Below, piece after piece: positions 4,132-27,523 of a stretch of DNA of 55,549 bases. The stretch lies in the IMG/VR virus record IMGVR_UViG_3300048769_000079, positions 1 to 55,549 of that record; one strand, written 5' to 3'. Source of the stretch: a virus. Within the stretch, counting starts at the first letter, position 1, and every line of letters starts with the position of its first letter. The translations under genes were made by a program, and so were the position numbers. The notes under the pieces were generated by a model that saw nothing but the letters and a program-made list of their open reading frames with translations, did not search any database and was not told the DNA's origin.

Positions 4132-4168
4132 TTTGCTAAAAATAATTAAAAGATTTTAAAAATAATTG

Positions 4169-4197
4169 TTGACCTTTTATTGTATTTAAGGTATATT
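4169..4197 (+). promoter_or_regulatory. Sigma-70-like promoter for the early gene run
   Basis: TTGACC (4169-4174), a 17-base spacer and TATATT (4192-4197) lie about 50 bases before the first small early gene and right after a terminator. The flanking TTGTTGA string recurs in the promoter at 19659. Confidence 0.75.
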
Positions 4198-4246
4198 ATA
4201 TATGTAAGCGAAAAGAAACCACAAACCACAAACCGAGGAGGATCAG

Positions 4247-4498
4247 ATGAAACTCAACAAAATCACAGCCCTGAAAAACGGAAACCAGTTGTTTGCATAT
4301 TGGGCCAATAATCGCGGGCGTGGATCGGACAACTGCACGCTGCTGGTTGTTCCGGCAGATGAACAGCGCCCTAATTTCTCGCGCGATGTGAAAAATGTTA
4401 TCGCTGAAACCAGAACCAGCTCATGGCGTGGTCTGGTCAATCTGTCAAAAGCCGTCTGCAACCAACTCGGAATCTCAAAACAGGAGCTGTGCGCATGA
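4247..4498 (+). CDS. Small hypothetical early protein
   Basis: The 83-residue protein begins MKLNKITALKNGNQLFAYW. The first half looks like a short beta sheet, the second is helical and basic. No family is recognised. It is the first gene after the 4169 promoter and has an excellent GAGGAGG ribosome site, so it is probably strongly expressed early. The ATGA overlap couples it to the next gene. Confidence 0.65.
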   Translation: MKLNKITALKNGNQLFAYWANNRGRGSDNCTLLVVPADEQRPNFSRDVKNVIAETRTSSWRGLVNLSKAVCNQLGISKQELCA

Positions 4499-4686
4499 AC
4501 GGACAACTCTGGCAGGAATGTTTTTGCGGTACTGAACCGGTTTGCGCTTCATGCGAGAAATGTAAAAAACATTGCACCTGCGGGAAACCGGTTCAGCCTA
4601 AAATATCAACCGAATGCGCGGAACCATATCGGCGAGGTATCGGGCAGGGTTTCGGATCAACGGAGGACGGCGAAGCGGCCTATTGA
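4495..4686 (+). CDS. Small cysteine-rich protein, likely metal-binding
   Basis: The 63-residue protein has eight cysteines in the first 45 residues, including FCGTEPVCASCEKCKKHCTC. This pattern suggests one or two zinc sites. It starts at the ATGA overlap with the preceding gene. The function is unknown; DNA or protein binding is a guess from the zinc-like pattern. Confidence 0.6.
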   Translation: MNGQLWQECFCGTEPVCASCEKCKKHCTCGKPVQPKISTECAEPYRRGIGQGFGSTEDGEAAY

Positions 4687-4748
4687 TCGTGTCAATTGCG
4701 CTTTTTTGTCTGGCAACGGTATTATTTATCATCTACCAAACGATTTAA
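4683..4748 (+). CDS. Possible micro-protein with a membrane segment
   Basis: A 21-residue frame starts from TTG at 4683, overlapping the previous stop (or GTG at 4689), and encodes an almost entirely hydrophobic peptide (SIALFCLATVLFIIYQTI) ending just before the next ribosome site. No own ribosome site is seen. It would need translational coupling. Confidence 0.3.
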   Translation: MIVSIALFCLATVLFIIYQTI

Positions 4749-4762
4749 AGGAGGAAAATTAA

Positions 4763-5029
4763 ATGAAAATCGAAATTAAATCGTGGTTATCGGACAGCGT
4801 TTTATTTTGTGGAGATTATAAAAATATTTTGGACGCGTTAAAAAATGCTATTAAATCCGGGGCCAACCTGTCCAGGGCCAACCTGTCCGGGACCAACCTT
4901 GATACAAAATATTGTTTTTTGTCAATTTCTCCTATAGGTTCAGAAAATGGATGTTTATGGGTTGAGAATACTTTTTCGCTTTACGAAGGGTATTGCGCGC
5001 TTGTTGATTATGCGGAGGCACAAAAATGA
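4763..5029 (+). CDS. Short pentapeptide-repeat-like protein
   Basis: The 88-residue protein contains about three pentapeptide-type repeats (GANLSRANLSGTNLD, residues about 33-47) after a helical N terminus. This is far shorter than typical pentapeptide-repeat proteins that mimic DNA, so a full quadrilateral helix is unlikely. AAAGGAGG precedes the ATG. Its role is unknown. The ATGA overlap at the end couples it to the next gene. Confidence 0.6.
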   Translation: MKIEIKSWLSDSVLFCGDYKNILDALKNAIKSGANLSRANLSGTNLDTKYCFLSISPIGSENGCLWVENTFSLYEGYCALVDYAEAQK

Positions 5030-5271
5030 ATAATGTTTCGCCTCACGTAATAGAGCAAAATCTTTTAGCAATCCGCGCCATTGCGGATTGTATTCGAGAA
5101 TTTGGAAAAATACCAAGCGGGCATCTTTACGCTCAGCTTATGAGTAAAATGGATTTAAATTCTTACAATCGGATTATCGGTATTCTAAAAAATGCAAAGT
5201 TAATTTCCGAAACCAATTTTGAACTAAAATGGGAAGGACCAAAAAATGAGCAATTGGACAAGCAAATATAA
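5026..5271 (+). CDS. Small hypothetical protein, winged-helix-like
   Basis: The 81-residue helical protein contains IRAIADCIREFGKIPSGHLY and later NRIIGILKNAKLI. Helices followed by a short strand near the end (NFELKW) resemble a small winged-helix fold, as in phage proteins that select between alternative states. This is a visual impression only. It overlaps its neighbours at both ends. Confidence 0.55.
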   Translation: MNNVSPHVIEQNLLAIRAIADCIREFGKIPSGHLYAQLMSKMDLNSYNRIIGILKNAKLISETNFELKWEGPKNEQLDKQI

Positions 5272-5560
5272 ATACCTAATAAAAGGGACGTTGGGACGAA
5301 TCACATGGAACGAGCGGACCGGAGTCTATACGCTCGCGGGTCACGGGCAAATAATCCCCGTACCTAAAGTAAATGGGGATAAAATTAAAGCGATGGAAAA
5401 CTCTTTTAAACCGCTTCCCGTGGGTCGCCAGGAACTATTTCCCGGCGTAAAGGTAAAGAGCCACCCGATACGTTTGCCGGAATCCGCGTGGGAAGAAATG
5501 GAAAAACCATATTCGTTAACAATCGCGGACGCACTCCGGGCTAAGGGTTATCACGTATGA
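5246..5560 (+). CDS. Hypothetical early protein
   Basis: The 104-residue, rather basic protein contains no motif I recognise. Its start overlaps the preceding gene by 26 bases, and GGAAGG lies upstream inside that gene. It ends in an ATGA overlap with the next gene, so it is part of the same translationally coupled early run. Confidence 0.55.
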   Translation: MSNWTSKYKYLIKGTLGRITWNERTGVYTLAGHGQIIPVPKVNGDKIKAMENSFKPLPVGRQELFPGVKVKSHPIRLPESAWEEMEKPYSLTIADALRAKGYHV

Positions 5561-5856
5561 GCGTAAAAAGAACCGGTGATAAAGACATAGCTTTCTGGCT
5601 TGACGAGATTTGTAAGTGTGGGTGTCGTTTACGATCAGATAGGGCAACTTCTTGGTGTTCAAGTCCGAAATGTAATTATTTTAGGAGGAATATGAAAGCA
5701 ACACGTGACTGGGGAAAGTGTACCTGCGGGTGCGGCGAAACGATAAAGCCCGGCGTGGAGATGGGAATTAATGAAGGTGCTTTGATACTAAAAGGCCATC
5801 CTTTACAAAAGAAACAAGGCCCTCTGACAAGACCCGTAAAGTTAAATAAAAAATAA
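5557..5856 (+). CDS. Cysteine-rich zinc-ribbon-like protein
   Basis: The 99-residue protein has two cysteine groups: CKCGCRLRSDRATSWCSSPKC (about residues 19-39) and CTCGCGETIKPG (about 55-66). Each looks like a zinc knuckle. The second group resembles a known phage motif in which CxCGCGxxxxPG is followed by a short hydrophobic loop. It probably binds zinc and perhaps nucleic acid. No function is known. Confidence 0.6.
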   Translation: MSVKRTGDKDIAFWLDEICKCGCRLRSDRATSWCSSPKCNYFRRNMKATRDWGKCTCGCGETIKPGVEMGINEGALILKGHPLQKKQGPLTRPVKLNKK

Positions 5857-6128: not shown

Positions 6129-7487
6129 GTGGAACGTAATAACATATCCTCTAATAATTTAGTCCCGGCAGGCTATAAGAGCGCATGCGGCGATGGCTCC
6201 CCGCGTGCGCTTTCTTTACGCCCCTACCAACGCGACGGTATCGAATACCTCCGCGCGAACGGAGGATGCGGCGTTTTATTTTGGGAAATGCGCCTCGGCA
6301 AAACTCTAACAACGATTCGTTTTTTATCCCATCGTCGGGACGCGCAACGAATTTTAGTCCTCGCGCCATATAGCGCTTTAGCGGGTTGGAAAAAGGATTT
6401 AAAAGAAAACAAGAAAGACATTTATCCTATTTACGAAATAAACCCCAAAAAGCGTGTCCAACTTTTAGACCATTTCGAAAAGATGAATGGCTGGTTTCTT
6501 CTTAATAAAGAAGCCTTTTTATACCTTGATTTTTTATCTATTTCTTGGGATGCAATCATTTGCGACGAAACATGGCTTGCAAATCCGCTTTCCAAAATCA
6601 CAAAATATTTTCTTAAAAATACAAAAGCCAGGTATCGAATTCTTTTAACCGGAACGCCCGCGCCGGAAACCGAATTGCAATACTATACGCAACTCACATG
6701 GGTAAATCCTGCAATCTTGGGTTGTAAATCATATTGGGATTTTCGGGTTAGGTACTTTCGCCCCGAAGGTTTCGACTGGGTTATGTCATTGAAGGGTAAA
6801 ACGTTTTTAGCAAAAAGGCTTGCTTCATATTGTTCAGTTCTTACTCGTAAAGATGCCGGATTGGATAAAGAAAAAATCTTTCGCAATCGGGTTATACAGC
6901 TCACCCCAGCGACGAGGAAAAAATATAAACAGGTTGAATCCGCGCTTTACGATGGTAAAATATTGAAATTCGCCGGGCAACGCTGGAATGAATGCCGACG
7001 TCTTTGTTCCGGGGCGGAAAAAGAAGCCGAATTGCTTTCTCTTTTAGCAGGGGAGTTGAAAGAAAGTAAAGTAATGATATGGGCGGATTTCGTGGAAGAA
7101 GTTGAACGGATTGCGAACATATTAGATTGTTTTTATATTCACGGCGCGGTCCCGGCTAACGAACGGGAGGAAATACGAATGACGTTCCTTCACGAGAAAC
7201 GGCATTTGGTAGCACAACCACAAACTTGGAAATGGGGCACAAATCTTTCCGGTGTTGACACTGTGATTTTCTTTTCCCTTCCGCAAAGCTTAATGACTTG
7301 GCAACAGGTTTGTGAGCGAACGGTTGATTTAGAAAAAGATGATTCTTTACTTATAATAACCTTAACGGCGGAAAATACCGTCGAAGAGGATATACGGAAA
7401 AGCCTTGAAAATAAAGAAACGCGTGTAAATCAGATAGACCGACTTCGTCGATCTATAAAAGGGAGGCGAGATGAAAAAGAAATATGA
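6129..7487 (+). CDS. SNF2-like superfamily 2 DNA helicase
   Basis: The 452-residue protein contains the superfamily 2 motifs in order: RPYQRDGIEYL at 31-41 (Q-motif-like), EMRLGKT at 53-59 (motif I), DETW at 146-149 (motif II), LTGTP at 173-177 (motif III), and a C-terminal HGAVPANEREE helicase region ending with a QxxxR-like QQVCERTVD. This is the compact phage version of Swi2/Snf2 or RapA-type ATPases. The likely role is DNA remodelling, replication initiation or recombination. It starts at GTG 6129 after CGGGAG. Its end overlaps the next gene by 17 bases. It opens the replication module. Confidence 0.9.
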   Translation: MERNNISSNNLVPAGYKSACGDGSPRALSLRPYQRDGIEYLRANGGCGVLFWEMRLGKTLTTIRFLSHRRDAQRILVLAPYSALAGWKKDLKENKKDIYPIYEINPKKRVQLLDHFEKMNGWFLLNKEAFLYLDFLSISWDAIICDETWLANPLSKITKYFLKNTKARYRILLTGTPAPETELQYYTQLTWVNPAILGCKSYWDFRVRYFRPEGFDWVMSLKGKTFLAKRLASYCSVLTRKDAGLDKEKIFRNRVIQLTPATRKKYKQVESALYDGKILKFAGQRWNECRRLCSGAEKEAELLSLLAGELKESKVMIWADFVEEVERIANILDCFYIHGAVPANEREEIRMTFLHEKRHLVAQPQTWKWGTNLSGVDTVIFFSLPQSLMTWQQVCERTVDLEKDDSLLIITLTAENTVEEDIRKSLENKETRVNQIDRLRRSIKGRRDEKEI

Positions 7488-8034
7488 ACTTAAAGCTGAA
7501 GGTAGTCTTTTTAGAATTATTGCTTTAAAAAATTTTAGATTCGTAGCAAAAGGTCAACCCGGTGGTTTAATTGAGGATGAAAAGAATTTAAGCCAAGAGG
7601 ACGACGCGTGGGTATCCGGCGACGCGCAGGTATCCGGCGACGCGCAGGTATTCGGCGACGCGCAGGTATACGGCAACGCGCAGGTATCCGGCAACGCGCA
7701 GGTAACCGGCGACGCGCAGGTATACGGCAACGCGCAGGTATTCGGCGACGCGCGGGTATCCGGCGACGCGCAGGTAACCGGCGACGCGCGGGTATCCGGC
7801 GACGCGCAGGTATACGGCGACACGGATTTGCTAGTAATCGGCCCAATAGGATCGCGCAAAGCGTACACAACCTTTTTTTCCGAAAAGGGTAGAATTGCCG
7901 TTTCATGTGGATGCTATTACGGAAGTATAGATCAGTTTGAAGGAAAAGTAATTTGTGTTCACGAAGAAGGAATTTACAGAATACAGTATGATTTAGCTAT
8001 TAAAATGGCAAGAAATACTTTAAAGGTAAAATGA
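7471..8034 (+). CDS. Hexapeptide-repeat (left-handed beta-helix-like) phage protein
   Basis: The 187-residue protein has an N-terminal cap (FRIIALKNFRFVAKGQPGG), then about twelve tandem hexapeptides of type DAxVxG with aromatic or Ser/Thr at the fifth position. A C-terminal domain ends IYRIQYDLAIKMARNTLKV. Proteins with this cap-repeat-tail design are common in phages and prophages, and the repeat is expected to fold as a left-handed beta-helix. No enzyme function is known. The DNA repeat is 18 bp, so copy number may vary between isolates. It overlaps both neighbours. Confidence 0.85.
   Translation: MKKKYELKAEGSLFRIIALKNFRFVAKGQPGGLIEDEKNLSQEDDAWVSGDAQVSGDAQVFGDAQVYGNAQVSGNAQVTGDAQVYGNAQVFGDARVSGDAQVTGDARVSGDAQVYGDTDLLVIGPIGSRKAYTTFFSEKGRIAVSCGCYYGSIDQFEGKVICVHEEGIYRIQYDLAIKMARNTLKVK
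7603..7830 (+). repeat. 18-bp tandem coding repeats (DAxVxG)
   Basis: About twelve to thirteen imperfect tandem copies of an 18-base unit of type GACGCGCAGGTATCCGGC. The variable positions are the codon after GTA/GTT and the GAC/AAC codon. The repeat leaves all other frames open, producing false open frames on both strands. Confidence 0.9.
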
Positions 8035-8513: not shown

Positions 8514-9019
8514 TGGAATGCACTAAGTGTCAACTTGCAAAAACACGAATTAAACTCGTACCTGGGCGCGGTGAACTTACCGCAAAGATATTGATAATTG
8601 GGGAATCGCCGTCAAAGGGGGACGACGTTTTAGGCCTGACTTTTACCGGGGAAGTTGGTAAATTATTAGATTTACTTTTAGTAAGGGCATCGATCTCTCC
8701 AAAGGATTGCTATTTTATTACCTCGGTGCTTTGTCGCCCTTGCGATAAGCAAAATGGCGAAACGCGGGAAGTTTATACGGATGAAATTTTTTCCTGTTTT
8801 GATAATATTATAGAGCGCTTTAGCTATTTACCGAATATTCAAGGTGTAGTATTTGCCGGTTCGGTTGCTAAAAAGTGGTACGCCTCGCGGTTCAAAGGCA
8901 TGCCGCAAACTACAATAATAAGTCCGGCGCTTTTAGCGCACCAGGGCGGCGCGGCAAGTTCGCATTTTTTAGACGCATTGAATTCTTTAATTGACTTTAG
9001 GAAGGAATTGGGTTTATGA
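8513..9019 (+). CDS. Uracil-DNA glycosylase, family 4-like (Fe-S type)
   Basis: The 168-residue protein carries the family 4/5 pattern: CTKCQLAKTR near the N terminus with two cluster cysteines, GESPSKGDD as the catalytic-loop region, FTGEVGKLLD, and ITSVLCRPCDKQ with two more cysteines. SPALLAHQGG occupies the usual HPS/HPA position near the end. It would remove uracil, or act more generally on damaged bases, in phage DNA. I prefer the ATG at 8513 (TAATG overlap) over a GTG 9 bases earlier, because it puts ECTKC at the normal N-terminal position. Confidence 0.85.
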   Translation: MECTKCQLAKTRIKLVPGRGELTAKILIIGESPSKGDDVLGLTFTGEVGKLLDLLLVRASISPKDCYFITSVLCRPCDKQNGETREVYTDEIFSCFDNIIERFSYLPNIQGVVFAGSVAKKWYASRFKGMPQTTIISPALLAHQGGAASSHFLDALNSLIDFRKELGL

Positions 9020-9636
9020 AAAAAGAAACGGATTTTGGGAAAGAAATAGCCATTTACGATCCGGCAAAACCAATCGCAATTCAAAATGACGGTGATCGGG
9101 AAAGGACGTATGCTTTACTGGTAGAGGTAAAACAAAAGCGAAAAATAATCGTGGACTTTTTTAAAGATTCAAAAGAAAAAGCCCACGCGACATGGAAAGC
9201 AATTTGCGGAAATGAAAAAACCTTTACCGATAAACTTGACCTTTACGATAAGACAGCCCGCGCGGCGATTAAAGTTTTTGATGATAATAGAGAAGCGCTG
9301 CGCGTCGCCGAGGAGAATCGACTCAAGGCTATTGCGGAAAAGAACGCTGCGCGGGCTTCGGCAGCGCTCGAAAAACGCGCCGAAAAGACGCTTGACCCGG
9401 AAAAGAAAGCGGCCTTGTTAGATAGAGCGGCTAATATTGTCCCCGATTTTATTTCCCTTCCCAGCGCTGCGACCGGAGGTCGAAAGGTTTGGAAATGGCG
9501 CTTAATTAACAAAATGGAGGTGCCTTTGGAATACATGATACCTGATGTAAAGCTTTTGAATATCCTTGCCGGGCAGGGGCGCGTTGTACCGGGCATCGAG
9601 TTTTATCAAGATACTGCATTGGTGGTGCGAGCATGA
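9016..9636 (+). CDS. Coiled-coil protein of the recombination region
   Basis: The 206-residue protein has a central, very Ala/Lys/Glu-rich helix (about residues 85-140) and a C-terminal globular part (WKWRLINKMEVPLEYMIPD...). Phages often carry such a coiled-coil protein ending in a short conserved WKWEIxDxxxIPxxY-type motif next to their recombinase or SSB genes. The function is not established. It lies between the glycosylase and the Sak4-like gene with ATGA overlaps on both sides, so it is probably part of the recombination operon. Confidence 0.7.
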   Translation: MKKETDFGKEIAIYDPAKPIAIQNDGDRERTYALLVEVKQKRKIIVDFFKDSKEKAHATWKAICGNEKTFTDKLDLYDKTARAAIKVFDDNREALRVAEENRLKAIAEKNAARASAALEKRAEKTLDPEKKAALLDRAANIVPDFISLPSAATGGRKVWKWRLINKMEVPLEYMIPDVKLLNILAGQGRVVPGIEFYQDTALVVRA

Positions 9637-20116: not shown

Positions 20117-20285
20117 AACCGTTTATGATAATCTTGCCGAACTTTTGGATGGTATTGACGTAGAATGCCAAGGCTGTTACGAAAACAAAGGGCACCACAG
20201 CGCCGAGGGGTTACACTGCCCAGTTGTAGATGAGGGTTTTAAATTAAATAAGACGCGGCAATTTACTGTGGAAGTATTTAAATAA
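20109..20285 (+). CDS. Small zinc-finger-like protein (58 residues)
   Basis: The frame starts at ATG 20109, inside the previous gene's last codons, and ends in TAATG at the next start. It contains CQGCYENKGHHSAEGLHC, a Cys/His group typical of a small metal site, similar in style to the tandem motif protein at 21928. The tight coupling on both sides supports that it is real. Confidence 0.6.
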   Translation: MGKTVYDNLAELLDGIDVECQGCYENKGHHSAEGLHCPVVDEGFKLNKTRQFTVEVFK

Positions 20286-20824
20286 TGGAGCTAACAATTA
20301 AAAAGGTAAAAAGCATAGGTCCGTGCGCGGATGGGTTTGCGTGGTACATGAAAAATCCAGGTAGGACAGTAGAAAAAACCATAAAAACGCTTTTAGCAAG
20401 TGATGAATGTGAGAAATATAATTGGTCAAACTGGCTTTTAACTCACTTGTTTACAAAAGAGAAAAATATAAAATATGCTATTTTTGCCGCGAAAGAGGTT
20501 TTGTATCTTTTTGAGGCAAAATATCCTGATGATTCTCGTCCGAAGAAGGCAATCGAAGCTGCTGAAAAATATTTAATTACGGAGGGTGCGGATGCGGCGT
20601 GGGCTGCGGCGTGGGCTGCGGGAGCTGCGGCGGGGGATGCGGCGTGGGCTGCGTCGGGGGATGCGGCGAGGGCTACGGGGGCTGCGGCGTCGGGGGATGC
20701 GGCGTGGGCTGCGGGGGATGCGGCGTGGGCTGCGGGGGCTGCGGCGTCGGGGGATGCGGCGTGGGCTGCGGCGTCGGCTGGACTCTCTATTAAAATTATA
20801 AAGTATGGAATAACTTTGCTATGA
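20285..20824 (+). CDS. Protein with Ala/Trp-rich GDAAWAA repeats
   Basis: The 179-residue protein has an ordinary helical N-terminal domain (to about residue 98), with CADGFAWYMKNPGRTVEKT and a KYNWSNWLLTHLF segment. A low-complexity region of AAWAA, GDAAWAA and ASGDAAWAA units (about 100-165) follows, and then a short tail. Phage and bacterial proteins with a similar head and xAAxAA repeats exist and are sometimes labelled putative immunity proteins; that label is not proof of function. The repeat should form a long Ala-rich helix with periodic Trp. It overlaps both neighbours. Confidence 0.7.
   Translation: MELTIKKVKSIGPCADGFAWYMKNPGRTVEKTIKTLLASDECEKYNWSNWLLTHLFTKEKNIKYAIFAAKEVLYLFEAKYPDDSRPKKAIEAAEKYLITEGADAAWAAAWAAGAAAGDAAWAASGDAARATGAAASGDAAWAAGDAAWAAGAAASGDAAWAAASAGLSIKIIKYGITLL
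20584..20784 (+). repeat. G/C-rich low-complexity coding repeat
   Basis: Irregular tandem units of GGGGATGCGGCGTGGGCTGCG and shorter variants encode GDAAWAA. All other frames stay open here, giving spurious frames on both strands. The sharply higher GC than the surroundings and the repeated units make slippage and copy-number change likely. Confidence 0.85.
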
Positions 20825-22407: not shown

Positions 22408-22580
22408 TGGCGGGCACCGGCACAACCGAGAGGCATCTCACCTGTGCACGATGGCCGCAAGTACATGCTGTGGGTAATATATTGGCTTTGCAAGCCGAAA
22501 ACCAAGAAAGAAGGAAAAAATGCATCTATTATACTCTGGCGAATGTCGACAGTGTGTGTGCGGTATCAAAACGAACATGA
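22407..22580 (+). CDS. Possible small ORF at the edge of the atypical region
   Basis: A 57-residue frame starts at ATG 22407 in a TAATG overlap. The product has no recognised motif, and another frame (GTG 22444) is also open here. Base composition shifts at this point from the phage's AT-rich third positions to a more mixed style. I cannot tell which frame, if any, is used. Confidence 0.3.
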   Translation: MAGTGTTERHLTCARWPQVHAVGNILALQAENQERRKKCIYYTLANVDSVCAVSKRT

Positions 22581-22900
22581 AGGACCTGCGCGGCAAAGAA
22601 TTGTTTACTGGCGACATAGTTCTTACTTTCACTAAGGGCTATTCGGCAGACGGATTGACAGCAGTGGTTTCAGACCAGTTTACAAGCTGTTCTGACGGAA
22701 CACACGTTGAGCATGAATCGCATTCGCCGTTCGTTATGGGTATAAAAAACGTTAATCTTGATGAGGGCGAATGGATGATTATGAAAGTAAAAGATTGGTC
22801 GGATTGTATTGATGGTGAACATTGGAAAGATTTCGGATTCAAATACAAAAACGAAGACGCGCCGCAGAACACTAAGGAAGCGGTGGAGAACATCGCCTAA
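22520..22900 (+). CDS. YopX-like phage protein
   Basis: The 126-residue protein contains MKDLRGKELFTGDIVL (about residues 20-35), matching the core pattern NGKExFEGDIV of the YopX family, followed by beta-rich sequence and a GFKYKNEDAPQNTKEAVENIA tail. YopX proteins are common in phages and their role is unknown. AAGAAAGAAGG upstream supports ATG 22520, although ATG 22577 would fit the family start better. Its stop codon lies inside the first box of the attC-like site at 22895, as often seen for integron cassette genes. Confidence 0.65.
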   Translation: MHLLYSGECRQCVCGIKTNMKDLRGKELFTGDIVLTFTKGYSADGLTAVVSDQFTSCSDGTHVEHESHSPFVMGIKNVNLDEGEWMIMKVKDWSDCIDGEHWKDFGFKYKNEDAPQNTKEAVENIA

Positions 22901-22967
22901 CAAATGCATGGCGGGGAGTACCCCCAAATGCGGAGTACCGCACTTCGCCATGCATCGGACGTTGGTT
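22895..22967 (+). other. attC-like integron recombination site 1
   Basis: Outer boxes are GCCTAAC (22895-22901, fits RYYYAAC) and GTTGGTT (22961-22967, GTT plus a near-match). Inner arms ATGCATGGCG (22904-22913) and CGCCATGCAT (22946-22955) are perfectly complementary and offset from the outer boxes by unequal spacers. The centre holds two small hairpins, each with an AGTA loop. The 73-base length fits known attC sites. The preceding gene's stop codon lies in the left box. Confidence 0.65.
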
Positions 22968-23042
22968 GCAATTAATCGCGCTCTGAAAATTATAGCCGGG
23001 GCGCAAAGACAACGCGGCATCGTGCCGCGAAGAAAAGAAAAA

Positions 23043-23978
23043 ATGAAATTTATCTCACTGTTTGCCGGTATCGGGGGTTTTGATTTAGGGCTTGAACGCG
23101 CCGGAATGCAGTGTGTCGGCCAGGTCGAGATAAATCCTTTTTGCCAGCGCGTTCTTGCGCACCACTGGCCGCAAGTCAAACGAATTGGAGATATACGAAA
23201 TGTCAACGGAACAGAGTTCGGAGCAGTTGACCTTATTTGTGGAGGGGTTCCATGCCAGCCTGCCAGCAACGCCGGGAAGAGAATGGGAACACAAGATGAT
23301 CGTTGGCTCTGGCCAGAGGCTTTTCGAGTTGTACGGTCTATCAAGCCGCGTTGGTGCGTGTTTGAAAATGTGCGTGGAATTATTACTCTCGAACAAGGTT
23401 TGGTTTTCGAGTCGTTGCTTTCTGAATTGGAAGATATTGGTTACGAAGTCGAAGCGTTCGTTATTCCAGCTTGCGCCGTCGACGCGCAGCACCGAAGGGA
23501 TCGGGTCTGGATTGTGGCAAACTCCAAGCGTGGAGGATGCGGGGCGCAAGGGGAGCGCAGAAGCCTGGATGGAATATCAGAACAACCACAGAACTACGCA
23601 ATGCCGATTAAGGAATCAAATTCAAATGTTCCCGACTCCAACCGTTCAGGATTCGGAGAAGGACGGTGGCCCGAGTCAATACAAAAGGAACAGTATCCCG
23701 CTGAACGCATTAGTAAAGGATCAAGGGCAAACTGGGAGCCTGAACCCGGATTGGGTAGAGTGGCTAATGGGGTTCCCGGTCGGGTGGACAGGTTGTGGAG
23801 TCTCGGAAACGCAGTCGTCCCGCAAGTCGTTGAAGTTATAGGAAGAGCAATCCTAAGAGCGCACATCGTGTGCGCGGAATGCGCCCCGGAGAACACTTCG
23901 GAAGCGCGATTAACAGCAACTAACAGCCGCGTTACGCAAGGGGCTAAAGCCCACATTGCCGAAGCGGCAACGTCGTAA
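23043..23978 (+). CDS. DNA cytosine C5 methyltransferase (Dcm-like)
   Basis: The 311-residue enzyme has all main C5 motifs: FAGIGGFDLG at 7-16 (I), GGVPCQPAS at 67-75 with catalytic Cys71 (IV), FENV at 107-110 (VI), QHRRDRVWIVA at 149-159 (VIII) and GNAVVPQVVE at 255-264 (X). It methylates cytosine C5 in an unknown short DNA site, most likely to protect phage DNA. The ATG at 23043 gives the normal family start; an open extension upstream runs through the attC-like site and is not coding. About the last 20 residues are encoded by the next attC-like site. A second gene is written in another frame (23200-23841). The base style differs from the phage backbone, consistent with recent acquisition. 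Confidence 0.93.
   Translation: MKFISLFAGIGGFDLGLERAGMQCVGQVEINPFCQRVLAHHWPQVKRIGDIRNVNGTEFGAVDLICGGVPCQPASNAGKRMGTQDDRWLWPEAFRVVRSIKPRWCVFENVRGIITLEQGLVFESLLSELEDIGYEVEAFVIPACAVDAQHRRDRVWIVANSKRGGCGAQGERRSLDGISEQPQNYAMPIKESNSNVPDSNRSGFGEGRWPESIQKEQYPAERISKGSRANWEPEPGLGRVANGVPGRVDRLWSLGNAVVPQVVEVIGRAILRAHIVCAECAPENTSEARLTATNSRVTQGAKAHIAEAATS
23200..23841 (+). CDS. Overprinted protein inside the methyltransferase gene
   Basis: A 213-residue frame lies wholly inside the cytosine methyltransferase gene in another reading frame. It starts at ATG 23200 with GGAG 9 bases upstream. The product, MSTEQSSEQLTLFVEGFHAS onward, contains SSRCFLNWKILVTKSKR, RSLFQLAPSTRSTEGIGSGL, WQTPSVEDAG, FPTPTVQDS and LNPDWVEWLMGFPVGWTG. 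I know this series of motifs from stand-alone phage and prophage proteins of unknown function that occur next to Dcm genes. Here they coincide exactly with methyltransferase motifs VIII and X in the other frame, so either the family arises by overprinting or it is a translation artefact kept by codon constraint. The ribosome site favours a real gene. Confidence 0.6.
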   Translation: MSTEQSSEQLTLFVEGFHASLPATPGREWEHKMIVGSGQRLFELYGLSSRVGACLKMCVELLLSNKVWFSSRCFLNWKILVTKSKRSLFQLAPSTRSTEGIGSGLWQTPSVEDAGRKGSAEAWMEYQNNHRTTQCRLRNQIQMFPTPTVQDSEKDGGPSQYKRNSIPLNALVKDQGQTGSLNPDWVEWLMGFPVGWTGCGVSETQSSRKSLKL

Positions 23979-23995
23979 CACGGCGAACGTTAGTG
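23917..23995 (+). other. attC-like integron recombination site 2
   Basis: The left box is CAACTAAC (23917-23924) and the right box GTTAGTG (23989-23995). Inner arms GCCGCGTTACG (23926-23936) and CGTAACACGGC (23974-23984) pair with a single G:T position. The centre has two hairpins, GGGCTAAAGCCC and TTGCCG-AAG-CGGCAA, the same design as site 1. The left box is complementary, apart from one base, to GTTGGTTG at the start of the methyltransferase cassette (22961), as expected if this piece once circularised. Confidence 0.65.
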
Positions 23996-24032
23996 TAAAT
24001 GCCTTGCGCTTTTAAAATTGAAAGGCTGCGCG

Positions 24033-24233
24033 ATGAAAAAAGGAAAATATAGCGGGCAAGTAAACAATGGTTGTCGCATTGTAGAAATTGATTGCTGTGC
24101 TGATTGTTGCTCATGTACTGAAGTGGCTGAGCTTAACGGGGAATATTATTGTCAAAAGCTTTTAGAGTCAATACCAAAAATGTTTGTGTCCTATGACTTT
24201 CTGGATGATTGCCCGCTCCCAAACGCGCACTAA
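24033..24233 (+). CDS. Small cysteine-rich cassette protein
   Basis: The 66-residue protein has CRIVEIDCCADCCSCTE and later cysteines (YYCQKL, DDCPLP), suggesting one or more metal sites or disulfides. The ATG has only a weak ribosome site (GAAAGG); a TTG 15 bases earlier is also possible. The TAA stop lies inside CACTAAC, the left box of attC-like site 3, so gene and site look like one cassette (23990-24281). The function is unknown. Confidence 0.6.
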   Translation: MKKGKYSGQVNNGCRIVEIDCCADCCSCTEVAELNGEYYCQKLLESIPKMFVSYDFLDDCPLPNAH

Positions 24234-24287
24234 CAGCGCTATGGTGCCATGCCATTCGTGGGAGTGTGCTGGTTATAACTGTTGGAT
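24228..24287 (+). other. attC-like integron recombination site 3 (degenerate)
   Basis: The left box CACTAAC (24228-24234) is the exact complement of GTTAGTG at the start of its own cassette (23989-23995). A right box GTTGGAT (24281-24287) fits GTTRRRY. The inner arms are only partly complementary (AACAG/CTGTT, then short pieces), so this site may be decayed or the right end may lie elsewhere. Length would be 60 bases. Confidence 0.45.
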
Positions 24288-24354
24288 TATTAAAGGTCGC
24301 TATTGTAAAGATAAGCCGTGTCTCGTTATGGCACGTACACGTTGTACGCAATAA
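24241..24354 (+). CDS. Possible 37-residue Cys-rich protein
   Basis: A frame from ATG 24241 encodes a peptide with seven Cys/His residues (PCHSWECAGYNCW, GRYCKDKPC, RTRCTQ). The regular Cys spacing is not what random DNA gives, but no ribosome site is seen. The frame overlaps attC-like site 3, so the two calls compete in part. Confidence 0.35.
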   Translation: MVPCHSWECAGYNCWIIKGRYCKDKPCLVMARTRCTQ

Positions 24355-24375
24355 ATTTTTCTCTGGAGGTTATAG

Positions 24376-24459
24376 GTGGCCGCAATTAAGAGTGTTTCTA
24401 CAACAGATTCAATAGCAAACATTAAACCTTGTGTGTCCGGTTTTGTAAAACAACGATAA
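24376..24459 (+). CDS. Possible 27-residue peptide
   Basis: GTG at 24376 lies 6 bases after a strong TGGAGG site and opens a 27-codon frame (AAIKSVSTTDSIANIKPCVS...). Only the ribosome site supports it. Confidence 0.3.
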   Translation: MAAIKSVSTTDSIANIKPCVSGFVKQR

Positions 24460-26055: not shown

Positions 26056-27523
26056 AAAACTTACACGAGCGAACTTCGGTTCAACGTTATTTGATCTTAT
26101 TGTCAGTACGGTTAAGCCTTCCGCGTCCATATCTGAAGCATACACAAAAAAATATTATAACGACCCGCTTGCGTGGGTTTTAGATTTTGTAAACGTAGAC
26201 TTGTCATTATACCACCGAGAGGCTTTTGAGATGATCCGAGACGGTAATCACAAAATAGCAATGCACGGGCCGCATGGACTTGGAAAAACAGTCTTTGCGG
26301 CCATTGCTATTTTATGGGCGGGCGCGGTCTCGGCGGATTGCAAAATCATTACCACTGCGTCGGCCTGGCGACAATTAGAAAACTACCTTTGGCCGGAAAT
26401 CCACAAATGGTACTCCAAAGTAAACTGGACTGCCGTCGAGATGGCTGGTGGTTGTAAAGTTCCTCGTTTACTTACGCTCGAATGCAACTTCAGCGAACAG
26501 TCGAAGGCATTTGCCGTCGCGTCGGATCGACCGGAGAGTATCGAAGGCGGTCACGCGGTGCGCGTCGTTTACGTCTTCGACGAAGCGAAGGCTATACCGA
26601 ACGCAATTTGGGAAAGTGCCGAAGGGGCCTTTAGTACGCCTGGAGATCATTTACAGATCGCGCTTTCTACCCCCGGCGACACGTCGGGCGTCTTTTATAA
26701 TATTTGCGCGCACCGTAACGGTTATGAGAAGTGGAAAGTCAAACATGTTACTTTACGTGAGGCAATTCGCGCGGGTCGCGTTACCCTAACCTGGGCGCGG
26801 GAAAAGCGCGCCGCTTGGGGAAAGGATTCCGCCGCATACCAGAATCGCGTATGGGGAATTTTTGCCACGGACGCACCCGACGTAGTTATCCCCCTCGCCT
26901 GGGTAGAGCGTGCCGTATCACGGTGGTACGATTGGAAAGATAAAGGCGCAGTACTCGCCGGACCCTATGTTATCGGAGCGGATACCGCCGGACAGGGTGT
27001 TGACAAGACGGTTTTTGCCCACCGTTATGGGAATGTACTTACGCGCTTAGAGCGTTTTGGAAAATCACGGCCTATGGAACTTGCCGGAAAGCTTAAAGCG
27101 GCTCTTGGAATGGTAGGGGAAGTTAACATTGACACGTCATTCGGTGAAGGCGTAGGCACGGCAGACCGCCTTAAAGAAGACGACGCGTTAAAGGCCCGCG
27201 TCCACGAAATACAGTTCGGGACGCGAACGGACATTACCGATCGGACGGGGCAAATTGTTTTCAAAAACACCCGCGCTTTACTTATTTGGAGCATGCGCGA
27301 AATGCTTGACCCTGACAACAAAGAAGACATCGCTTTACCGGATGACGAAAACCTAATAGGTGACTTGACCGCCATTCACCGCTTACCTCTCTCCAGTGAC
27401 GGGAAGCTGGCAATCGAAAGCAAGGACGATATCAAGGCGCGTATAGGCCGTTCGCCGGACGACGGGGATGCGTGTTGTTTGGCGTTTTTTAGGGCACCCA
27501 TTCACGATTTACAGATTTTTTAA
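26048..27523 (+). CDS. terL: Terminase large subunit
   Basis: The 491-residue packaging motor has an ATPase with Walker A GPHGLGKT at 74-81, Walker B VYVFDEA at 174-180 and the coupling segment ALSTPGD. The nuclease domain has GADTAGQGVDKTV (Asp312), VNIDTSFGEG and SPDDGDACCLAFF near the end, which supply the metal-binding acids. It cuts and translocates phage DNA into the head through the portal. It overlaps the small terminase-like gene by 8 bases. The subtype (headful or cos) cannot be read from motifs alone. The circular assembly is compatible with headful packaging. Confidence 0.95.
   Translation: MDEKLTRANFGSTLFDLIVSTVKPSASISEAYTKKYYNDPLAWVLDFVNVDLSLYHREAFEMIRDGNHKIAMHGPHGLGKTVFAAIAILWAGAVSADCKIITTASAWRQLENYLWPEIHKWYSKVNWTAVEMAGGCKVPRLLTLECNFSEQSKAFAVASDRPESIEGGHAVRVVYVFDEAKAIPNAIWESAEGAFSTPGDHLQIALSTPGDTSGVFYNICAHRNGYEKWKVKHVTLREAIRAGRVTLTWAREKRAAWGKDSAAYQNRVWGIFATDAPDVVIPLAWVERAVSRWYDWKDKGAVLAGPYVIGADTAGQGVDKTVFAHRYGNVLTRLERFGKSRPMELAGKLKAALGMVGEVNIDTSFGEGVGTADRLKEDDALKARVHEIQFGTRTDITDRTGQIVFKNTRALLIWSMREMLDPDNKEDIALPDDENLIGDLTAIHRLPLSSDGKLAIESKDDIKARIGRSPDDGDACCLAFFRAPIHDLQIF

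Follow-up and report, generated by a model that had tools for sequence, protein, structure and literature searches.

Can gene cassettes of the integron type reside in a phage that encodes no integrase to move them and, if so, by which route are they exchanged? The question is raised by a 55,549-base IMG/VR virus record (the window hereafter, meaning the whole stretch of DNA that was analysed), which carries tailed-phage terminase, portal, primase and helicase genes. In this record a sequence-only reading had placed three attC-type sites around a cytosine methyltransferase gene and a small Cys-rich gene, in a region (22893-24349) located between the replication genes and the terminase. Judged by its sequence, this region consists of gene cassettes of the integron type, and the phage has no integrase. 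It very probably represents a short, partly decayed, integrase-free cassette array (a phage CALIN), belonging to a family of cassettes in circulation among phages that are otherwise unrelated and most likely moved by a trans-acting integron integrase. The features of the region are collected in Table 1.

Table 1. Features of the putative cassette region, in window coordinates.
Feature	Position	Strand	Remarks
Captured foreign cassette 3' end	22848..22900	+	Fused to 3' end of upstream phage ORF (22520-22900); encodes last residues of the ORF
attC-like site 1	22893..22971	+	R'' 22895-22901 GCCTAAC; R' 22961-22967 GTTGGTT; R2 18.4 bits, E 0.023
Cassette 1 (C5-methyltransferase), G^TT to G^TT	22961..23988	+	Homology with L225 begins at 22961 (L225 1775) and reaches R'' box
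Cassette 1 start arm, GTTGGTTGC AA TTAATCGCGCT	22961..22982	+	Complementary to 23903-23924
C5 cytosine DNA methyltransferase CDS	23043..23978	+	PF00145, E 3.8e-50; phrog_363, E 1.7e-78; stop inside site 2
Cassette 1 end arm, AGCGCGATTAA CA GCAACTAAC	23903..23924	+	Pairs with 22961-22982
attC-like site 2	23916..23998	+	R'' 23918-23924 AACTAAC; R' 23989-23995 GTTAGTG; second R2 match in 22800-24400, 12.1 bits
Cassette 2 (probable)	23989..24340	+	GTTAGTG to G^TT at 24341; R boxes 7/7 complementary; without second arm
Small Cys-rich ORF, 66 aa	24033..24233	+	Stop inside R'' box
Degenerate attC-like site 3, long loop	24225..24349	+	R'' 24228-24234; R' from 24341; third R2 match in 22800-24400
Third, truncated cassette start (probable), GTTGTACGCAATAAATTTTTCTCTGGAGGTTATAGG	24341..24380	+	Family leader; compare G011 33211 GTTGGTGTAAATAAATTTTTCGCTGGAGATTATATG

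Sites and cassettes in the window

Sites 1 and 2 are bounded by R''/R' boxes (AAC...GTT, with C preceding GTT), as are the other sites of the family, and fold on the bottom strand into a hairpin in which R'' pairs with R' and L'' with L', as had been expected from the sequence. The bottom strand is favoured over the top strand both in site 1 (-20.8 versus -18.8 kcal/mol, z -3.9) and in site 2 (-24.9 versus -18.2 kcal/mol, z -5.4), and in neither site does any shuffle equal it. By definition, attC sites carry extrahelical bases on the R''-L'' arm and an unequal unpaired central spacer (PMC2727003). The central spacer is unequal here, 3 bases being left unpaired on one side; in sites 1 and 2, no extrahelical bases are evident at their canonical place on the L'' arm, which counts against the cassette reading. 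The third site had been described as decayed and is indeed degenerate, but its limits had been misplaced: with a right box at 24279 it has no fold (z about 0), and a model of the cassette family (R2, below) sets this box at 24341 (GTTGTACGC), with 7.7 bits and an E value of 0.29 for 1.6 kb, which is weak when taken alone. As claimed, two stop codons (22898-22900 and 24231-24233) fall within left boxes.

Whether an attC covariance model recognises these sites depends on the model. The first one (R1), built from 27 bacterial integron sites, detects class 1 and betaproteobacterial sites with E values down to 1e-14 and picks out no site in the window, where sites 1 and 2 score just 1.1-1.4 bits. 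This result, too, counts against the cassette reading. However, R1 is too narrow to decide, because it likewise draws a blank on TJE1 and P12002L, two phage records with known CALINs. The second one (R2), derived from ten sites that belong to other phages, with the window left out of training, ranks site 1 top in the whole window. With filters off, the three sites are the top three matches in 22800-24400, the third of which ends at 24349. At E<=1, R2 has no match in 1.87 Mb of further loci, made up of 1.10 Mb of viral loci with an integrase and 0.77 Mb of others. An Rfam search and a plasmid comparison gave no match. A simple scanner for AAC/GTT boxes plus a stem was discarded as unspecific, site 2 being tied as the best place in the window with unrelated ones.

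The C5-methyltransferase cassette is well supported. Its ends are complementary as the sequence-only reading had stated, GTTGGTTGC and GCAACTAAC matching at 8 of 9 positions, and after a 2-nt mismatch the match continues over a further 11 of 11 (TTAATCGCGCT and AGCGCGATTAA). These ends are the top start/end pair of the window, with a score of 16.7 versus maxima of 12.4-15.0 in eight shuffles; the score used replaced an earlier free-wobble version that inflated the shuffle maxima. In circle form, the cassette folds at -40.3 kcal/mol on the bottom strand and at -34.1 kcal/mol on the top strand. Another frame of the methyltransferase gene (23155-23841) is also C5-methyltransferase-like (LNPDWVEWLMGFPVGWT) and has 50% identity with L224, which may reflect an overlap or an old frameshift. 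Elsewhere in the window, 20285-20824 encodes a repetitive Ala/Trp/Gly/Asp-rich C-terminus, and both strands have long open frames there, a case of simple-repeat coding.

The small Cys-rich cassette that starts at 23989 is probable. The reported match between GTTAGTG and CACTAAC holds at all seven positions, but the evidence is weaker than for cassette 1 because this match is not followed by a second arm. The leader of this cassette (24007-24038) is 87.5% identical to a stretch preceding an ATG in L319, a related contig of 57.9 kb, and its Cys-rich ORF has no match in Pfam, PHROG or phages. A truncated third cassette probably begins at 24341, because GTTGTACGCAATAAATTTTTCTCTGGAGGTTATAGG carries the family leader; downstream of this position no matching end was found.

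Cassettes shared between phages

The boundaries drawn from the window recur in other phages. The same methyltransferase cassette is present in a 17.8 kb contig (L225), where homology with the window opens at the G of GTT in both sequences (22961 and 1775, respectively) and continues into the end site's left box. The R boxes themselves differ between the two, yet in step, both ends having changed together (GTTGTATGC...GCATACAAC in L225, GTTGGTTGC...GCAACTAAC in the window). Outside the cassette the two sequences are different, bar a two-gene operon with 88.6% identical DNA (window 4159-4676, L225 2781-3297), which is inside a cassette in L225 and outside any recognisable one in the window. In L319 it is the attC of site 1 that recurs, with an intact cassette before it and, from GTTG onward, a different cassette after it. 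A whole cassette is shared by the phages G008 and G016 (97.3% identity over 449 bp), with breakpoints at most 7 nt from GTT on both sides; these two share some DNA outside their arrays as well. The core genes are mostly unrelated among these phages, although about 40% identity links some of those in G001 and G008. A pentapeptide-repeat-like gene (window 4748-4962, G008 26814-27087), which adjoins the G008 array downstream, has about 90% DNA identity between these otherwise mostly unrelated phages. No near relative spanning 22.9-24.4 kb with and without the cassette was found, L002 and L003 starting only from about 26.0-26.2 kb, which counts against the cassette reading. Nevertheless, cassettes and attC sites appear to be shared as units with G^TT breakpoints in all three comparisons (L225, L319 and G008/G016), as expected of cassettes, and the interpretation of the region as such draws independent support from the L225 junction, the site-1 attC of L319 and the ranking by R2.

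The comparison with L319 also accounts for the cassette start that had been missed upstream of site 1. Window positions 22848-22973 are 94.4% identical, over 126 bp including flanks, to the reverse complement of L319 (5250-5375), where the counterpart is the end of an intact cassette starting with GTTAGGCGAAATTCTCCACCGC; the upstream ORF of the window is absent from this match. Because the L319 cassette shares just its last ~50 nt with the window, this ORF (22520-22900) has gained a cassette tail, so that only these ~50 nt and the attC are cassette-derived. The name given to it before, YopX-like, is unsupported, the ORF having no Pfam or PHROG match. The loss of the 5' end from the cassette of site 1 and the degeneration of site 3 show that ordinary phage mosaicism, too, has shaped the region, and site 1 is evidence of general recombination.

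Such mosaicism lends some weight to the strongest alternative, in which general or illegitimate recombination brought in the cassettes, either from another phage or from a bacterial integron, with no integrase acting on the phage genome. A foreign cassette tail joined to an unrelated phage ORF at site 1, and the genes of one L225 cassette sitting at window 4159-4676 outside any cassette, are what this explanation would produce, and PMC9892861 raises it for phage CALINs too. However, the independent junctions all fall at G^TT, and ordered arrays of 6-10 cassettes begin at a short conserved site in several phages. This alternative is therefore considered unlikely, even if it keeps more of its force than the others.

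Pairing of cassette ends

In this family, pairing of the two cassette ends covers about 21 nt: the R box (9 nt), then a small mismatch, then a second arm of 10-11 nt. A second arm scoring at least 8 is present in 37 of 38 non-redundant cassettes from nine contigs versus 1.5% of cross pairs, and none of 2000 permutations attains the observed sum of second-arm scores, although most cassettes were found via the same pairing, a selection that pushes this rate up and also inflates the permutation and cross-pair values. The second arm is also present in cassettes that were delimited otherwise, namely the shared ones of the window and L225, whose 5' GTT boundary is defined by homology, and the one common to G008 and G016, which is defined by its breakpoints. 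Among 36 classical cassettes (32 mainly betaproteobacterial and class 1, three of Vibrio and one of Shewanella) none has it. Extended pairs in three class 1 loci (L065, L068 and L073; score 23) were set aside, as they read as perfect nested inverted repeats with spacing that shifts in step, like insertion-sequence ends.

The pairing is biased toward one strand. G.T wobbles number 39 on the bottom strand versus 5 on the top strand (p 1.4e-7, an optimistic value because the cassettes are related), and when the sites are folded as excised circles, 25 of the 27 have their more stable form on the bottom strand (p 9e-6). These numbers bear on a second alternative, that the complementarity of the ends has nothing to do with recombination and works in the mRNA, where it would affect stability, translation or termination. 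The arms do lie in the 5' leader and at the 3' end of each transcript, and hairpins ahead of start codons are common here. However, a role in single-stranded DNA is favoured over one in mRNA because both the wobbles and the circle folds favour the bottom strand, which is the non-coding one, and exchange of the cassettes at G^TT speaks against the mRNA explanation as well, which makes it very unlikely.

Arrays, movement and known systems

Longer arrays of the same family are found in other phages, with about ten cassettes in G018 (46 kb, with a 123-base terminal repeat), nine in G016, seven in G010 (with a 43-base terminal repeat) and six in G008. A short conserved sequence ending in TAG^TTG precedes the first cassette; it is near-identical in G001, G002 and G008 and looser elsewhere, and it may be an attI or a promoter. 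No such sequence or attI is present in the window, where site 1 is an attC. DNA methyltransferases are encoded by 9 of 39 cassettes, two of them by clear homology to that of the window. Other cargo of these 39 cassettes includes a Tad1/Acb2-type protein (PF24729, 27.9 bits, cutoff 27), an RNA ligase and a Y1 transposase, one each, as well as a Lar-like protein in one cassette, a weak match below the cutoff. The methyltransferase cassette probably protects the DNA of the phage from restriction.

The transposase suggests a further explanation, in which REP-like hairpins are moved by a Y1 transposase of the IS200/RAYT type. Y1 enzymes act on single-stranded hairpins, and the G016 array does encode a Y1_Tnp protein (PF01797, E 4.5e-35). 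However, this protein is a passenger, carried by one cassette of one array, and GTT junctions, a single site downstream of each gene and the uniform orientation of all cassettes speak against this explanation, which we consider even less likely than a function in mRNA. Least credible of all is the proposal of chance hairpins plus ordinary phage mosaicism with no cassette system, which could appeal to the failure of the bacterial model R1 and to the absence of a fold in site 3 as first described, but is already contradicted by the pair score above shuffles, the R2 ranking and the shared junctions.

The preferred reading is that of an integrase-free array served in trans. No integron integrase, as had been noted before, and no other Y-recombinase is present in the window (TIGR02249, PF00589), and CALINs are recognised by at least two attC sites and no intI, which here are sites 1 and 2 and the absence of an integrase. 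Related arrays likewise have no integrase in G001, G002, G008, G010, G011 and G016-G018 (TIGR02249 and PF00589; G008 and G009 TIGR02249 only). The enzyme would most likely come from an integron of the host or from a different element in the same cell and would cut the bottom strand at R'; cassettes would then be excised as circles and inserted at an attC or attI-like site. Each cassette starts at G^TT and finishes with an end site whose bottom-strand hairpin comprises an R box, an asymmetric spacer, an L stem and a variable tip. Because the cassette ends pair over about 21 nt, the bottom-strand hairpin of the excised circle could be longer than that of the arrayed site. What the sequence itself establishes is where cassettes begin and end, that they recur beside different neighbours, that their ends pair and that the bottom strand is favoured; the enzyme, the circles, the insertion route and the gain for the phage are inferred. 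A host search, with R2 in 398 genomes of one phylum and an exact pattern in 400 of another, plus five single genomes, found nothing; with this coverage it carries little weight, but that neither an integrase nor a host turned up counts against the preferred reading.

That few or no integron cassettes had been described in phages, as the sequence-only reading stated, is outdated. PMC9892861 (Qi et al., 2023) reports 17 CALINs in virulent and temperate phages (TJE1, P12002L, PH101, MW202573), with methyltransferase cassettes and five phage attC sites that are active with IntI1. The arrays described here resemble those in being integrase-free attC arrays in phages with G^TT boundaries and DNA methyltransferase cargo, and differ in their short spacers (0-2 / 4-5 nt), in the second arm, in the conserved sequence before the first cassette of several related phages, in the presence of the same cassettes in different phages, and in being known from sequence alone. 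With sedentary chromosomal and class 1 integrons they share the R''/R' complementarity of the ends, the bottom-strand hairpin, one-gene cassettes and stops near R''; unlike these integrons, the contig has no integrase, its sites escape R1 and the second arm is the rule rather than absent (37/38 versus 0/36). The complete integrons of temperate phages (Vibrio p16, Shewanella M16-3 and, possibly, Rctr41k) are alike in placing cassettes in a phage genome, but only they have an intI, and R2 finds no family sites in them (L057, L056 and L055, respectively). Three stretches of Rctr41k (KX853513.1), 4680-5678, 6792-7991 and 8807-9311, stand out for an integron-integrase relative (TIGR02249, E 1.4e-116) that has a C5 methyltransferase and a potential pair of cassettes in its neighbourhood. 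This phage may carry a complete integron and does not appear in the available tables of PMC9892861. In IMG/VR, at least 270 stretches encode integron-integrase relatives (L140-L219), far above the few phage integrons in the literature, although some may be bacterial contamination.

No description of the second arm, of cassette sharing between unrelated phages or of a common sequence before the first cassette was found in PMC9892861 or in the open-licence literature searched. A bolder interpretation, which is plausible and held tentatively, is that of a distinct, phage-adapted integron lineage with an attI-like docking site, counter-defence arrays, a trans-acting integrase and a ~21-nt end pairing that gives an extended bottom-strand hairpin in the circle only. 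The extended end pairing would add a circle-specific structural element to the known anatomy of attC, and R1, the bacterial attC model, misses such phage sites. In all, the data suggest that anti-defence genes are traded among phages with a borrowed recombination enzyme whose gene lies elsewhere. If phages keep integrase-free arrays of methyltransferases and a Tad1/Acb2-type protein, counter-defence genes could pass between unrelated phages one unit at a time, each with precise boundaries, which, if true, would offer a concrete route, open to testing, by which anti-defence genes are exchanged rapidly.
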